A stretch of DNA of 64,000 nucleotides from Xanthomonas sacchari. GTDB lineage: Bacteria; Pseudomonadota; Gammaproteobacteria; Xanthomonadales; Xanthomonadaceae. This document shows positions 14,924 to 34,246 of the stretch, one piece after another (positions within the stretch are counted from its first letter, which is position 1; the number at the start of each line of letters is the position of its first letter). Position numbers and translations under genes: made by a program. Location of the stretch: contig NZ_CP100647.1 of the NCBI RefSeq assembly GCF_024266585.1, positions 2,399,001-2,463,000 of the forward strand, read 5' to 3'. The notes beneath the pieces were generated by a model. It had not been told where the DNA came from. It saw only the letters and a program-made list of their open reading frames with translations, and made no database searches.

Positions 14924-15841
14924 TCACTCGCTGGCGGCGCGCCCGTCGTTCGGCGGCAGCACCTCGGGCACGTGCGTGTCGTACTGGTGCAGCACTTCCG
15001 CGAACCCATGGCGCGGTTGCCAGCCCAGCGCGTCCAGCGCCCGCTGCGGTGAATAGACGCGGTCGATCCGTTCCGGCAGCGCCCAGCCGCGTTGCGCGAA
15101 TGCCGCCACCAGCGCCGGGGCGCGACGTTGCAGGACCGCCGGTGCCGCGCGGTGCAGTTCGGCGCAATCCTCGCGCTGGAACGGCGTGGTGCCGGAAATC
15201 ACGAACGTCGCGCTCGCCGGCCCGGCATGCCGCAACGCCGCGACGTGGGCCTCGGCGACGTCGCGCGCGTCGATGCCGCGATGCAGGCGGAATGCGGCCA
15301 TCACGTTGACCGGCTCCGGGAAGCAGCGCGACATGCGCAGGATGCGCACGCTCGGCCCGCCTTGTCCGGCGGCCTCGCACAGCAGCGCCTCGGCCTCCAG
15401 CTTGGTGTGGTGGTAGATGGTCTGCGGCTGTGGCGTCAGTGTCTCGTCGACCCAGGCGGCGGTGCCGTCGGGGCTGGCGGCGCTGCCATACAGCGCGGTG
15501 GTGCTGGTGAAGACGAGGCGGCGCACGCCGGCCGCCGCGGCGGCATCCAGCACGCGGCGCGTGCCGTCGACGTTGACCTGGCGGAAGCGCGCCGCCGGCA
15601 CGTGCGCGACATGCGGCGCATGCAGCGCGGCGGTGTGGATCACCGCGTCGGCGCCCTGCAGCGCCCGCGCCAGCAGCGCGGCATCGTCGAGGTCGCCGAC
15701 CCAGTCGGCGGTGGAGCAGGGCGTCCGGTCGAAGCCGCTGACGCGGTGCTCGCGCGCGAGCCGGATATGGATCGCGCGGCCGACCCGGCCGGCACTGCCG
15801 GTGACGACGATCTTCAGCGGCGACGCGATGGGCATGGGCAT
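14924..15841 (-). CDS. NAD(P)-dependent epimerase/dehydratase family protein
   Basis: About 305 residues. Rossmann motif KIVVTGSAGRVGRAI near the start; the YxxxK catalytic pair is in IYHHTKLEAEALL, preceded by FTSTTALYG with the catalytic Ser/Thr. Short-chain extended fold of the NAD-dependent sugar epimerase type. The start is uncertain: upstream Met codons in the same frame would add ~17 residues, and no ribosome site decides between them. Convergent with the beta-barrel gene at 14062-14913. Substrate unknown, probably a nucleotide sugar or small carbonyl compound. Confidence 0.82.
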   Translation of the reverse strand: MPMPIASPLKIVVTGSAGRVGRAIHIRLAREHRVSGFDRTPCSTADWVGDLDDAALLARALQGADAVIHTAALHAPHVAHVPAARFRQVNVDGTRRVLDAAAAAGVRRLVFTSTTALYGSAASPDGTAAWVDETLTPQPQTIYHHTKLEAEALLCEAAGQGGPSVRILRMSRCFPEPVNVMAAFRLHRGIDARDVAEAHVAALRHAGPASATFVISGTTPFQREDCAELHRAAPAVLQRRAPALVAAFAQRGWALPERIDRVYSPQRALDALGWQPRHGFAEVLHQYDTHVPEVLPPNDGRAASE

Positions 15842-15911
15842 TGGCGATGGCTCGAAGGCGGGTGGGGGGGCGATGTAGGCGATGCTGCGCACACCGGCGG
15901 CCGGTCCCGGC

Positions 15912-18674
<2,763 letters not shown>

Positions 18675-18773
18675 GATCAGCGTTCCGGAAACGGGGACGT
18701 GCAGGCGGGCACGCAGACGGCGATGCGCACGGTGGTACAGGCGGCGGGGGCGGGCGTACGCGGTACGGCCATC

Positions 18774-19925
18774 TCAGGCGGCCTGCGCCGATGCCGCCAG
18801 CGGCACGCGCGGCGGCAGCCCGCGCACCGCCTCGGCGATGGCGCGGATGTGCGCCGGGGTGGTGCCGCAGCAGCCGCCGACCAGGTTCAGCAGTCCGGAT
18901 GCGGCGAACTCGCGCAGCGTCGCGGCCATTTCCTCGGGGGTTTCGTCGTACTCGCCGAAGGCGTTGGGCAGGCCGGCGTTGGGGTGCGCGCTGACGTAGC
19001 CGTCGGCGATCCGTGCCAGGGTCTCCACGTGCGGCCGCAGGTCCTTGGCGCCGAGCGCGCAGTTCAGCCCGACCGACAGCGGCCGCCCGTGCGCGACCGA
19101 GGCGTAGAACGCCTCGGCGGTCTGCCCGGACAGGGTGCGGCCGGAGGCGTCGGTGATGGTGCCGGAGATCATCACCGGCAGGCGCCCGCCGCGCGCGTCG
19201 AACACCTCCTCGATCGCGTACAGCGCGGCCTTTGCGTTGAGCGTGTCGAAGATGGTCTCCACCATCAGCGTGTCGGCGCCGCCGTCGATCAGGCCGTCGA
19301 TGGCCTCGCGGTAGGTGGCGCGCAGTTCGTCGAAGCTGGTGTTGCGGAAGCCGGGGTCGTTGACGTCCGGGCTGATCGAGGCGGTGCGGCTGGTCGGGCC
19401 GAGCACGCCGATCACGAATCGAGGCTGGTCCGGCGTCAGTGCCTCGACCGCGTCGCAGCAGGCGCGCGCGACCTGCGCGCCGGCCTTGTTGAGCTCGTAG
19501 ACCAGGTGTTCCAGGTGGTAGTCGGCCTGGCTGATCGCCGTGGCGTTGAAGGTGTTGGTCTCGAGCAGGTCGGCACCGGCGTCGAGGTAGGCGCGATGGA
19601 TCTCGGCGATCACCTCCGGCCGGGTCAGCAGCAACAGGTCGTTGTTGCCTTTCAGGTCGTGGCCCTGCGGCGCGTGGTCGCAGCCGGGACCGTGCACGTG
19701 GCCGGCCTCCTGCGCGCTGTCGTAACCGTTGGCGAAACGCGCGCCGCGGTAGTCGTCCTCCTGCAGCCCATGGCGCTGGATCATCGTGCCCATCGCCCCG
19801 TCGATGATCAGGATGCGCTCGGACAGGGCCTGCAGCAGCGATTCGGCGCGCTGGGGGTGGAGCCATTGGGAGGCCGGGAGTGGGGAATGGGGAATGGGGA
19901 ATGGGGGAGGAGCGATGGTGCTCAT
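18774..19925 (-). CDS. metH: Methionine synthase, N-terminal homocysteine-binding module
   Basis: 383 residues. The homocysteine S-methyltransferase barrel carries [11 protein letters not shown] near residue 42, a zinc Cys in SVGLNCALG, and the Cys-Cys pair in GGCCGTTP near residue 355. The barrel is the first module of MetH, encoded here as its own gene. Starts at ATG 19923-19925 (AGGAGAT site) with a 4-base overlap with the regulator gene. Residues ~6-19 ([14 protein letters not shown]) are encoded by the repeat at 19874-19902, a lineage-specific extension. 99 bases separate it from the second metH gene, which probably shares its transcript. Confidence 0.94.
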
Positions 19926-19999
19926 GCGACATCTCCTGCGGCCGCCTTGGCCTTGGCGGTTGCTTTTTCGATTCCCGATTCCCCAATCCCGATTCCCGG
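19874..19999. repeat. Inverted GGGAATCGGGAAT repeat pair straddling the sahR-metH junction
   Basis: Arms 19874-19902 and 19971-19999 match in inverted orientation at 25 of 29 positions. The first arm encodes the start of the metH module; the second encodes the extreme C-terminus of the regulator. The 68-base loop holds the stop/start overlap, the start codon and the ribosome site of metH. Confidence 0.85.
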
Positions 20000-20923
20000 C
20001 TTCCCGGCAATCAACGAAATCACCTCGAAATGCGGCGGGCGCTTCTCGCGGGTCACGGTCTCCAGGCTGGACACCTCCAGCCCGGCCTTGCCGACGAACT
20101 TGCGCAGTTCCTTGGCCGAGAACCCCAGGTTGACGTGGCCGTAGGCCTGCACCGCGGCCTTGTGCTCGTGGCGCGCCAGGCTGCACAGCAGCAGGCGCCC
20201 GCCCGGGCGCAGCACCCGTGCCGATTCGCACACCGCCTGCGCCGGCTTGGTGGCGTAGGTCAGGGCGTGCATCATCACCACCAGGTCGAAGCTGGCGTCG
20301 GCGAAGGGCAGGGCGTGCATGTCGCCCTCGCGCACTTCCACGTTGCCGAGCCGGCGCAGGCGTTCGCTGGCCGCGGCCACCACCCGCGCGCTGGTGTCGA
20401 TGCAGACGTAGCGGCGCGCGTGCGGCGCCACCAGTTCGGCCAGCACGCCGTCGCCGGAGGCGATGTCGAGCACGTCGCCGGTCTCCAGCAGCGGCAGGGC
20501 GGTGCGCGCCAGCGCTTCCCAGGTGCGGCCCGGGGAATAGTGGCGTTCCATGTCGCCGGCCACCGAGTCGGCCCAGTTCTGGTCGGCGGCGCGGTTGGCC
20601 AGCACCGCGGCCACGCGCTCGGCGTCCTGGCGCAGCAGCGGATCGTCGCTGCCGGTGCTCAGTGCCAGCCACAATGCGCGCTGGGCCGGGTCCAGCAGGG
20701 CCTCGTCGAAGCGATAATAGGCGGACACGCCGGCACGGCGGTCGCGCACCAGCCCGGCCTCCTTGAGCTTGGCCAGGTGGGTCGAGACGCGCGGCTGCGC
20801 CAGGCGGGTGATCGCCGACAGCTCGGCCACGGTCAGCTCTTCCTGCTCCAGCAGCGCCAGCAGGCGCACGCGGGTGGCGTCGGCGAAGACCTTCAGCCGG
20901 GACGACCAGTCCTCCAGATCCAT
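19922..20923 (-). CDS. sahR: SahR-type regulator: ArsR-family wHTH fused to an SAM-dependent methyltransferase-like domain
   Basis: 333 residues from ATG 20921-20923, with AGGAAG upstream. The N-terminal ~100 residues form an ArsR winged helix ([29 protein letters not shown], then [12 protein letters not shown]). Residues ~150-300 contain an SAM-binding fold ([15 protein letters not shown], then CIDTS). This architecture matches SahR, the proteobacterial regulator of the S-adenosylhomocysteine/methionine cycle, where SAH acts as the signal. It sits directly upstream of metH. Residues ~307-320 ([11 protein letters not shown]) derive from an inserted repeat. Confidence 0.88.
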
Positions 20924-20980
20924 AAATATCTTCCTATCGCGATATAGAGATATTTTGGTCCGCGCGACGGTCCCGGTCAA
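20924..20980 (-). promoter_or_regulatory. Promoter and operator of the sahR-metH operon
   Basis: On the minus strand: -35 TTGACC (20975-20980), 17-base spacer, -10 CAAAAT (20952-20957). A perfect 8-bp inverted repeat, AAATATCT (20924-20931) and AGATATTT (20948-20955), with a further symmetric centre CTATCGCGATATAG, covers the region from the -10 to the start codon. This fits autorepression by SahR; the inference is from position and symmetry. Confidence 0.75.
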
Positions 20981-21011
20981 GTTGCACACGCCGGCGTATG
21001 GTTGGCGCGGC

Positions 21012-21017
21012 TACAAT
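21012..21017 (+). promoter_or_regulatory. Candidate -10 element of the acyl-CoA dehydrogenase gene
   Basis: TACAAT sits 33 bases before the GTG start. No good -35 element is found at the usual distance, so the call is tentative. Confidence 0.35.
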
Positions 21018-21049
21018 GGCCGCACCAACAAGCCCGGGAGGGGTTCGAC

Positions 21050-22198
<1,149 letters not shown>

Positions 22199-22256
22199 GG
22201 CCGGGAGTCGGGATCGGGGATTAGCCGGTTCCTGAATCCGCTGAGGAATCACGAAG

Positions 22257-22285
22257 AAGCGGCCGCAAGGCCGCTTTTTCTTTTT
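22257..22285 (+). terminator. Intrinsic terminator
   Basis: AAGCGGCC-GCAA-GGCCGCTT stem followed by a run of T (TTTTCTTTTT). Classic terminator of the acyl-CoA dehydrogenase gene. Confidence 0.9.
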
Positions 22286-22321
22286 GTGGAAAAGGGGTGA
22301 GCGGCATTCGGGCTGCAATGC

Positions 22322-22345
22322 GTCGGGACTGAAGTCCATCCCACA
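22322..22345. repeat. Half-site of the GGGA-CTTCAGTCCC palindromic repeat family
   Basis: GTCGGGACTGAAGTCCATCCC belongs to the same family as the copies at 36269-36292 and 36367-36434. No second arm is seen nearby. Confidence 0.6.
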
Positions 22346-22423
22346 AGGAGCGCTCGGCCTTCAAGGAGCGCTCCGTCTTGCGCCGGGTTTTGGATCGCGC
22401 TTCCCGACTAGATTCCCGGACAA

Positions 22424-22447
22424 CAAAAAACGGCCTTGCGGCCGCTT
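22424..22447 (-). terminator. Intrinsic terminator of the RND operon
   Basis: Read on the minus strand: CGGCC-GCAA-GGCCG stem followed by TTTTTTG. Its stem and tetraloop match those of the convergent terminator 170 bases away. Confidence 0.85.
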
Positions 22448-22534
22448 CTTGTTTTGCCTCTACAGGGCGGAAGGATCAGGACCGGGAGGGGTCCGTTCAC
22501 GCATCCCCACTCCCGAATCCCCAATCCCCGCCCC

Positions 22535-25500
22535 TCACCGATCCGGCTGATGCCGCGCCAGACCGGCTTCCTGCATCTGCGTGAATTCCTTCGACGGCTC
22601 GTCCAGCTTGTCGCCGAGCATGCGCCGCACCATCACGAAGAACAGCGGGATGAACAGCACGCCCAGCACGGTGGCGAACAGCATGCCGCCGATCACGCCG
22701 GTACCGATGGCATGGCGGGCGTTGGCGCCGGCGCCGGTGGAGATCGCCATCGGCAGCACGCCGAGGATGAACGCGAACGAGGTCATCAGGATCGGGCGGA
22801 AGCGCAGGTGCGCCGCCTCGGCCGCGGCCTCGCGCAGGGTCTTGCCCATCGCCCGCTGCTCCACCGCGAACTCGACGATCAGGATCGCGTTCTTGGCGGC
22901 CAGGCCGATCACCGTGATCAGGCCGATCTTGAAGTAGATGTCGTTGGGCAGGCCGCGCAGCAGCGAGAACGCCACCGCGCCGAGCACGCCGATCGGTACC
23001 ACCAGCAGCACCGACACCGGGATCGACCAGCTCTCGTACAGCGCCGCCAGGCACAGGAACACCACCACGATCGACAGCACCAGCAGCAGCGTGGCGGTGT
23101 TGCCGGCGATGATCTCCTGGTACGACATGCCGCTCCAGTCGAAGCCGAAGCCCGGCGGCAGGTCGTTGTTGACGATGTTCTCCATCGCGCTCATCGCCTG
23201 GCCGGAGCTGCCGCCCGGGGCCGGGTTGCCGACGATGTTGACCGCCGAGTAGCCGTTGTAGCGGCTCAGCGACGGCGAGCTGTAGATCCAGTCCGAACTC
23301 ACCACCGTGCTCAGCGGGATCATCTGCGGCAGCCCGCTGCTGTCGGTGGCGGTGCTGCTGGGCACGTAGAAGTTGCGCAGCGACTCCGGACCGGTGCGGA
23401 ACGGTGCGTCGGCCTGCATGTTGACGCGCTTGATGCGGCCTTCGTAGAAGAAGTCGTTGACGTACACCGGCGCCAGCATCAGCTGGATCGACTGGTAGAT
23501 GTCGTTGACCGACAGGCCCATCGACTGCGCCTGCACGCGGTCCACCTTCAGCTGCAGCTGCGGCGAGTTCTCCAGGCCGTTCGGGCGCACCCCGGCGAGG
23601 GCGTCCTGGCGCTGCGCGGCCTTGCCGAGCACGATGTTGCGCGCCTGCAGCAGGGCTTCCTCGCCCTGGCCGGTGCGGTCCTGCAGCCACATGTCGAAGC
23701 CGCCGAACTGGCCCAGGCCCTGCACGGTCGGCAGGTTGACCACGAAGATCTGTGCGTCCTTGATCCCGTAGAACATCCCGTTCAACTGCTGGATCAGGTC
23801 GCCGGCGGCGATGTCGCGCTCTTCCCAGGGCTTGAGCCGGATGAAGCCCATGCCCACGTTCTCGCCGCGGCCCAGGAAGCTGAAGCCGGCCACCTGCAGC
23901 ATGCCTTCGACCGCCTTCTGCTGCTGCAGCACGCCGCGCATCTGCGCGAACACCTCGTTGGTGCGGGTCTTGGTCGCACCCGGCGGCAGCTGCACGATCG
24001 CCAGCGCGAAGCCCTGGTCCTCTTCCGGCAGGAAGCTGCCCGGCATGCGCGTGAACAGGAACCCGCACAGCACCAACAGCAGGGCGAACACCGCCATCCA
24101 GCGCGGCGCGCGGCGGATGGTATTGCCGACCGCGCCGACGTAACGGTGCGCCAGCTTGTCGTAGTACTTGTTGAAGGTGCGGTAGACCCAGTTCGGGTTG
24201 TCGTTGTGGGTCGGCTTGAGGAACGCCGCGCACAGCGCCGGGGTGAAGCTCAGCGCCAGGAACGCCGAGAACCCCATCGACATGGCGATGGTGATCGCGA
24301 ACTGCTTGTAGATCGCGCCGGCGGCGCCGGGCTGCATCGCCGAGGGGATGAACACCGCCGCCAGCACCACGGTGATGGCCACCACCGCGCCGGTGATCTG
24401 GGTCATCGCCTTGTGCGTGGCCGCCTTCGGCGCCAGGTGCTCCTCTGACATGATGCGTTCGACGTTCTCGATCACCACGATCGCGTCGTCGACCACGATG
24501 CCGATCGCCAGCACCATCGCGAACAGGGTCAGCTGGTTGATGGTGAAGCCGATGGCCCACATGCCCAGGAAGGTGCCCAGCAGCGCCACCGGGATCACCA
24601 GGGTGGGGATGATGGTGGCGCGGAAGTTCTGCAGGAACACCAGCATCACCAGGAACACCAGCACGATCGCCTCGGCCAGGGTCTTGACCACTTCCTCGAT
24701 CGAGATCTTGACGAAGGTGGTGCTCTCGTACGGCGTGAACCAGGTGACGCCCTGCGGGAAGCTCGGCTGCAGCTCGTCCATCTTGGCCTTGACCGCCTCG
24801 GACACGCTCAGCGCATTGGCGCCGGGCAGCAGCTGGATCGCGAAGGCGCCGGTCGGCTTGCCGTTGTACTGGGTGTCGAAACCGAAGTTGGTCGGGCCGA
24901 ACGCGACCCGGGCCACGTCCTTCAGCCGCACCACGGTGCCGTTGCTGTCGGCGCGCAGGATGATGTTCTCGAACTGCTCGGGCGAGGTGAAGCGGCCCTC
25001 GGCGCTGACCGTGGCGGTGAACGACTGGCCCTGCGGCGCCGGGTCCGAGCCGAGCGAGCCGGCGGCGAACTGCACGTTCTGCGCGCCGATCGCGCTGTAC
25101 ACCTGGCTGGCGGACATGTGGTAACCCTGCAGCTTCTGCGGGTTGAGCCAGATGTCCATGGCGTACTCGGCGCCGAACTGCTGGGTGCTGCCGACGCCGG
25201 GCACGCGCGAGATCTGCTCCAGCACGCGCGAGCCGACGATGTCGTTGAGCGCGTCGCGGTCGATCGACGGGTTGTCCGAGCGCAACGCGATCACGCTGAG
25301 GAAGCCGGCGTTGGCCTTGGCCACCACCACGCCCTGCGCGGTCACTTCCGACGGCAGGCGCGGGGTCGCCAGCGACACCTTGTTCTGCACCTGCACCTGG
25401 GCGATGTCCGGATCGGTACCGGTTTCGAAGGTCAGGGTGATGGTGGCGCTGCCGCTGGAGGACGACGACGAGCTGAAGTACAGCAGGTGGTCGATGCCGG

Positions 25501-34116: not shown

Positions 34117-34246
34117 GGCGGGGAGTGGGGAATCGGGAATGGGGAATCGCAAGAGCGGTTTCCTGATAACACCCTTTCCCTGGATAAATTCATCGCCTGC
34201 AAACCGCTTTTACCTATTCCCCATTCCCGATTCCCCACTCCCCGCC
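34117..34246. repeat. Element with perfect 31-bp terminal inverted repeats of the GNR family
   Basis: Arms at 34117-34147 and 34216-34246 are exact inverted copies over 31 bases. Inside, AGCGGTTT (34154-34161) and AAACCGCT (34201-34208) form a second nested pair. The element fills nearly the whole gap between nadK and the nucleotidase gene. It resembles paired REP-type elements, not an insertion sequence, since no transposase is encoded. Confidence 0.9.

Follow-up and report, generated by a model that had tools for sequence, protein, structure and literature searches.

Inverted G-rich heptamer elements at the samR-metH1 junction of Xanthomonas sacchari: a hairpin probably left by DNA-level upkeep rather than built as a translation switch

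The end of samR and the start of metH1 in Xanthomonas sacchari are each occupied by a G-rich repeat, in inverted orientation relative to each other, and a transcript across the junction would fold into a long hairpin around the metH1 start. A sequence-only reading of this DNA had suggested that a mobile short repeat may act here as a translational coupling or attenuation device. Does the hairpin serve the translation of metH1, or does it follow from the way in which the repeats are maintained in the DNA? The question was addressed in the window, which here means the whole stretch of 64,000 nucleotides that was analysed, in the remainder of its genome and in related genomes. The hairpin is probably a by-product of the DNA-level upkeep of paired, inverted G-rich elements rather than a purpose-built translation switch.

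By their domain profiles, the genes concerned encode a regulator of the ArsR/methyltransferase kind and a cobalamin-dependent methionine synthase that is split in two, and samR, metH part 1 (metH1) and metH part 2 (metH2) all lie on the minus strand. Co-location of samR with metH1 and metH2 has been described in Xanthomonas, with SamR as a distant homologue of SahR (PMC4239095). The regulator had earlier been named sahR; the name should be samR, the protein being SahR-like and not SahR proper (PMC4239095). The features of the junction are as follows.

15912-18674, minus strand: metH part 2, with pterin, cobalamin and activation domains (profile matches)
18774-19925, minus strand: metH part 1, with a homocysteine S-methyltransferase domain (Pfam S-methyl_trans; NCBIfam methionine synthase, residues 25-374)
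19876-19903, plus strand: metH-side arm, which is C-rich on the mRNA and reads GGGAGTG GGGAATG GGGAATG GGGAATG on its G-rich strand; encodes part of the MetH1 N-terminal extension (FPIPHSPLP)
19904-19913, plus strand: inner tail of the metH-side arm, GGGGAGGAGC; GGAGGAGC differs from GGAAAAGC by two letters
19922-19925, minus strand: ATGA, the samR stop (TGA) and the metH1 start (ATG), within the loop
19922-20923, minus strand: samR, with an ArsR-type HTH and a SAM-dependent methyltransferase domain (Pfam HTH_5, Methyltransf_11)
19933-19937, minus strand: Shine-Dalgarno-like AGGAG of metH1, read from the sequence
19962-19969, minus strand: inner tail GAAAAAGC, matching the family tail GNAAAAGC
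19970-19997, minus strand: samR-side arm, GGGAATC GGGATTG GGGAATC GGGAATC; encodes part of the SamR C-terminal extension (GIGIGESGI)

Arm-to-arm comparison of 19874-19902 with the reverse complement of 19971-19999 gave agreement at 25 of 29 positions, as the sequence-only reading had stated. Its account of the geometry also stands: the loop between these 29-bp arms (19903-19970) is 68 nt long and holds the stop codon, the AUG and the ribosome-binding site, with the samR TGA and the metH1 ATG overlapping as ATGA (19925-19922), and both arms are translated, one in the SamR C-terminus and the other in the MetH1 N-terminus, with both frames kept. Counted as whole heptamers, the arms are 19970-19997 (minus strand) and 19876-19903, spaced by 66 nt, and each side shows a head, four units and tail-like sequence. 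Inverted pairs of at least 25/29 with a loop of 20-120 occur at three places in the window and in none of 20 first-order Markov resamplings, and the 13-mer GGGAATCGGGAAT (at most one mismatch) has 20 occurrences in the window, where 0.02 would be expected. A repeat listing at seed 9 reported no inverted pair here, the longest word common to the arms being 8, and an Rfam comparison of window positions 15000-24000 gave no match at the junction and a single sub-threshold match at 21775-21946.

Rehm et al. (2015, PMC4692102) presented the GGGAATC family of Xanthomonas as simple sequence repeats that form G-quadruplexes. They reported 70 convergent pairs in one species and 75 in another, and noted stem-loops formed by the pairs as possible. 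Genome-wide, 340 matches to the doublet GGGAATCGGGAATC (at most one mismatch) were found, against none for the reversed control. Arrays were surveyed in the window and in 40 stretches of the same genome, of which 20 were evenly spaced and 20 kb long and 20 were chosen around arrays, and among the 96 arrays the neighbours less than 300 bp apart were convergent in 29 cases, same-direction in 11 and divergent in one. The unselected part, window included, holds 53 arrays in 464 kb; GCC often precedes these, and an GNAAAAGC-like tail, by a strict pattern, follows 19 of them compared with 19 of 5000 random window places. Four-unit arrays are ordered, the commonest seventh bases being G, G or C, G and C in genome G000, and this unit order departs from chance, being reached by 0 of 2000 shuffles in both G000 and G017 and by 3 of 2000 in G006. 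Given the ordered units and the tail, an arm is better seen as a copy of an ordered element of ~40 bp (GCC head, usually four GGGANYS heptamers, GNAAAAGC-like tail) than as a plain microsatellite produced by independent slippage. Heptamer arrays are stop-free in all six frames (eight unit types tested), which helps to explain their survival inside genes, and two further in-frame instances lie in metH part 2.

16523-16603, convergent pair, no single strand: second heptamer pair, in frame in metH part 2, with arms at 16523-16550 and 16576-16603; a pair is present here in 18/20 genus genomes, with none in G001 and an array-less insert in G012
17723-17750, minus strand: single heptamer array, in frame in metH part 2; an array is present in 8/20 genus genomes

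The pair in metH part 2 occurs as two AWT allele types, and even G002 and G003, which are closely related, do not share the same one. Further convergent pairs in the window lie at 22203-22528, which brackets the gap between two convergent genes and contains terminator-like hairpins, and at 34121-34242. Elsewhere in the same genome (1153495-1154290; L110, 996-1791), same-direction arrays of two to four units recur every 145-246 bp.

The distribution of the junction arms was examined in a genus set of 20 genomes, the present one included. Both arms are present in 12, the samR-side arm alone in six (one with a remnant of the metH arm), so that the samR-side arm is found in 18, and neither in two; the latter two genomes are almost array-free throughout (4 and 3 AWT matches). 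A search of 60 family genomes retrieved 30 loci, 27 of them outside the genus. Among these 27, three carry a samR-side arm at the same place, one a decayed extension and 23 nothing; two of the three also have a metH-side arm by pattern, which in the third is decayed as judged by eye. Most outgroup loci read are thus insert-free, and in these metH1 still adjoins samR. A scan of named genomes, in which the best 80 of 330 loci were used, added to the first set 27 Xanthomonas-labelled loci, with a samR-side arm by pattern in 24 and a metH-side match, sometimes weak, in 15, and 42 Stenotrophomonas-labelled loci, of which 40 are armless, one has both arms (MMGLT7) and one is unreadable. SamR ends in ..KP* where arrays are absent and continues as ..KPG.. 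(in a few cases ..KPV..) where they are present, and many array-free relatives have ~10-30 nt, by eye and in some cases more, between the conserved SamR end and the MetH1 start. The insertion looks old, placed after the ancestral KP of SamR and decayed in several lineages. The mobility that had been ascribed to the repeat is unproven, its positions being old and conserved.

The positions are stable, and the units that occupy them are replaced. In orthologous regions of ~14-18 kb from the 20 genomes, arrays occur in 18, at near-identical positions, some sites being empty in some genomes. The unit types are AAT/ATT in most genomes and ACC/ACT/ACG in G004, G015, G017, G019 and partly G006. Whole-genome counts give 465 ACC matches (reversed control 24) versus 86 AWT (control 0) in G004 and 11 ACC (control 1) versus 759 AWT (control 11) in G000; G017 is mixed, with 254 and 311 matches. 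Two further regions, compared in 10 genomes, show the same type switching at the sites A948, A3216, A4713 and B4121. Site A6048 is always AWT in these genomes and differs in AAT or ATT; there the arms and the interior change jointly and the flanking genes track the species (alignment with G014 left out). In G006 and G007, which are ~3% apart in the samR-metH region, the arms differ at several sites and the flanking genes are alike (L236 versus L235, L244 versus L245). ACC-type genomes are interleaved with AWT-type genomes in the rpoB, gyrB and combined trees, which carry no support values; the rpoB and gyrB trees disagree in part, and the tree of the samR-metH region may reflect recombination. 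Repeated switching, the exact number of switches not being claimed, would rest on the interleaving seen in each of these sequence trees.

The two arms of a pair change together. Both arms of convergent pairs are of the same class in 20/20 cases in G017 (p 0.005) and 7/7 in G006 (p 0.028) by permutation uncorrected for shared ancestry, counts that include three and two non-random pairs of the met region, respectively; one divergent neighbour pair in G006, outside this count, has arms of different class. Over 18 C-type pairs of G017 the arm-to-arm ACC versus ACT composition is correlated with r 0.89 (0 of 20000 permutations, shared ancestry uncorrected), and r is 0.86 when the met region is left out (15 pairs). 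Pairing is commoner among C-type than among W-type arrays (Fisher p 0.002 in G017, 0.013 in G006). With all types taken together, the 14 arm pairs of the junction match better within their own species than when arms are swapped (p 5e-5), and within a type the comparison gives p 0.11 (AWT) and 0.05 (ACC/ACT), all uncorrected for shared ancestry; at these within-type values, fine compensatory coevolution in one unit type is not claimed. The cross-species similarity of the junction arms is explained by joint turnover of the pair, as elsewhere in the genome.

The segments between arms were compared across species, with one genome per species and the 10 nt beside each arm excluded, at nine sites and in 279 comparisons. 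The spacer is inverted between some species at four sites, and none was seen inverted at the other five. Fifteen comparisons were called inverted, ten of them at the site upstream of samR, where the single convincing case is G015 versus G019 (reverse score 38 versus forward 20), the other nine calls being inflated by a symmetric terminator. The remaining inverted sites are A3216 (G015 versus G017, 26 versus 8; G004 and G019 likewise), A4713 (G015 versus G017, 22 versus 8) and A948 (G000 versus G007, 39 versus 17). The corresponding loci are L243 versus L242, L240 and L239 for A3216 and L235 versus L086 for A948. At the samR-metH1 junction, where an inversion would remove the metH1 start, none of 66 species pairs is inverted, 16 being collinear and 50 matching neither way. 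At the metH2 pair none of the 15 comparisons with usable interiors is inverted; an untrimmed comparison scored 44 of 153 slightly better reversed, by at most four points, which was taken as noise. In published work, homogenised arms together with inverted spacers are the signature left when a polymerase switches template between inverted repeats (PMC8604942), a process by which RNA hairpins are reported to be created and maintained (PMC8794818). The family displays both parts of this signature, the inversions being at the four sites and not at the junction. Homologous recombination, between arms or between strains, could produce patterns like these as well.

The number of units also bears on the genes themselves. 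A frame survey of 127 loci left 113 distinct usable junctions (13 duplicates, one unusable), of which two of the 43 with arrays and none of the 70 without place SamR and MetH1 in a single open frame. The two are those of X. cannabis (L293), with five units, and X. vasicola (L306), with two, the usual number being four; five and two are equal modulo 3 and give the same frame shift, and the loops differ too. The unit number is likely to be the cause of the shared frame, judging from these sequences. At other loci, heptamer numbers vary between strains of X. euvesicatoria (VNTR table, PMC8002079).

In the explanation that we prefer, the junction structure would be one member of a family of ~40-bp G-rich elements that are spread over the genome as inverted pairs, and such a pair would normally bracket the short gap between two genes. 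Here the end of SamR and the start of MetH1 would have been so close that the arms landed inside both reading frames, where they are tolerated because the arrays are stop-free in six frames. DNA exchange between the arms would keep them alike and would sometimes invert the segment between. The patterns are observed; the process behind them would most likely be a switch of template by the polymerase, or else recombination between the inverted arms. The RNA hairpin would follow from this architecture with no need for selection on translation, any translational coupling would rest on the ATGA overlap, and the repeats would still matter to the genes through the unit number, which would set the frame. 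Several points count against this explanation. The arms would likewise stay alike if strains exchanged whole cassettes by homologous recombination, inversions are seen between species only, with none at five of the nine sites, 50 of the 66 junction comparisons match neither way, and the divergent pair in G006 has mismatched classes. Template switching alone, moreover, supplies neither a new unit type nor genome-wide differences in type.

In a second explanation, the pairs would be a self-homogenising, invertible element. A putative trans-acting source would rewrite its unit in place throughout the genome, more than once and in lineages independent of one another, much as telomeres are rewritten when the telomerase template changes; at samR-metH1 this turnover would switch the frame, so that SamR and MetH1 are either separate or fused. 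We regard this as rather unlikely.

The proposal that selection maintains the stem as a device for coupling or attenuating metH1 translation, which would keep the terminating ribosome near the start or hide the start until samR is translated, depends on the folding of the transcript. The minus-strand RNA of 19850-20020 was predicted to fold at -75.5 kcal/mol (z -3.99, 0 of 200 shuffles as stable), with the arm-arm stem present in both the MFE and the centroid structures, and to this extent the folding anticipated by the sequence-only reading was borne out. The stem is predicted in all 12 genus genomes with two arms (18-26 of 28 pairs, in one case 18 of 21) and in the MFE of two outgroup loci; its retention in 12/20 genomes, far more stable than shuffles in the window, speaks for such a device and against the preferred explanation. 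The same holds for the Shine-Dalgarno region being mostly paired, as an attenuator would need, in G000, G007 and G011 (unpaired 0.16-0.20); the values in G010 and G006 are 0.22 and 0.24. Sequestration is strongest in three close species with no general pattern, and it was rejected as a conserved feature. The ATGA overlap is present in 38/41 distinct unfused junctions with arrays versus 14/70 array-free ones, a comparison confounded by phylogeny, and the overlap itself suggests translational coupling.

Against a selected device, the stem is not general in the orthologues: it is absent in 8/20 genus genomes (six without the metH arm, two without either arm), most outgroup loci examined have no insert, and the Stenotrophomonas-labelled loci among the best 80 of 330 are armless in 40 of 42. 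In the 14 loci with the stem the Shine-Dalgarno region has a mean unpaired probability of 0.38, versus 0.41 in the 10 without, and the AUG one of 0.81 versus 0.67; barring the arms from pairing in the 14 stem loci lowers the value for the Shine-Dalgarno region from 0.38 to 0.34 and that for the AUG from 0.81 to 0.68. A general hiding of the metH1 start by the stem is therefore not predicted by the folding model, the AUG being if anything slightly more open. In 10/14 junction arm pairs, position 7 of unit 3 retains an unrepaired C-C mismatch, and similar pairs occur at unrelated loci, even between convergent genes. The translational role proposed from the sequence alone is not supported by the missing stems, the similar accessibility and the retained mismatch, and we hold it to be unlikely.

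A G-quadruplex rather than the duplex may be the functional form, the G-rich arm at the samR end forming an RNA or DNA G4 that would pause ribosomes or polymerase. Four G-tracts are present and are kept while other letters of the unit change, the G-rich samR-side arm is found in 18/20 genomes versus 12/20 for the metH-side arm, and oligonucleotides of the repeat form G4s in vitro (PMC4692102). However, the duplex would compete with such a structure, two genus genomes manage without arms, and Rehm et al. report that a gene-regulatory role of the repeats could not be identified (PMC4692102), which makes this explanation quite improbable. Inverton-like switches, in which a dedicated site-specific recombinase would orient promoters or terminators between the arms, could account for the inverted spacers at 4/9 sites, but the flips are seen between species only and the junction has 0/66, and this is very improbable.

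Mobilisation of the arrays as non-autonomous elements of a RAYT (Y1) transposase, i.e. as a REPIN variant, is hardly credible: the doublets are REPIN-like and Y1_Tnp matches occur in 18/20 genomes, missing exactly in the two nearly array-free ones, but this joint loss is confounded, both array-poor genomes being small, none of 20 stretches (4.3-4.4 kb) around a subset of the Y1_Tnp matches in the 18 genomes holds a heptamer array, and 14 of these stretches show REPs of the GTAGGAGC/GTGGGAGC type, the stretch of the present genome showing neither. REPs of this kind flank published Xanthomonas RAYT genes (PMC2817692), and a RAYT as the maker of the arrays is largely refuted by the Y1_Tnp loci carrying ordinary REPs or none. 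Genome G019 has 21 listed near full-length copies of a Y1 transposase (IS200/IS605-like), which are near-identical and each carry one internal TAG.

When the arms of a long RNA stem show matched changes, this is usually taken as proof of selection on the RNA. The matching here is at least equally explained by DNA exchange, and covariation in such repeats can thus mislead. The family also offers a natural series of unit change at many fixed sites and of intergenic flips by inverted G-rich arms, in which it can be studied how repeat number may join or separate a regulator and its target enzyme.

Among known systems, REP doublets and REPINs are likewise short, dispersed inverted doublets with spacers mostly of 20-100 bp, sometimes intragenic (PMC2817692, PMC3733652). 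They are defined by a GTAG/GTGG head and an internal palindrome, whereas the present arms are direct heptamers with an GNAAAAGC-like tail, and by a cognate RAYT flanked by the same repeat, for which the count here is 0/20 Y1_Tnp stretches. The palindromic elements of Rickettsia also lie in frame within metabolic genes, but are described as ~150 bp long with a conserved peptide (PMC10969869), unlike heptamer arrays open in six frames. Template switching shares with the present family the homogenisation of arms and the inversion of spacers, also in coding sequence (PMC8604942, PMC8794818); the former account concerns yeast genes and the latter RNA hairpins, whereas the elements here form a family of bacterial repeats whose unit is typical of the species. 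The closest likeness is to the GGGAATC/GGGNATC repeats (PMC4692102), with which the junction pair shares the heptamer, the usual four units, convergent pairs near gene ends, a mostly conserved gene context, some intragenic positions and a possible stem-loop. Repeats of that family have at least 14 bp, two units and one GGGAATC, and the samR-side arm has three GGGAATC; the junction also has the convergent arrangement on opposite strands that is reported for part of the family. In the sections of that paper that were consulted, and in the literature searched, no report was found of an order among the units, of the GNAAAAGC-like tail, of the ACC/ACT types, or of joint turnover, spacer inversion or frame fusion. 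New here, relative to the known family, are the ordered element of ~40 bp, the joint change of unit in both arms, the inversion of spacers and the fusion of reading frames.
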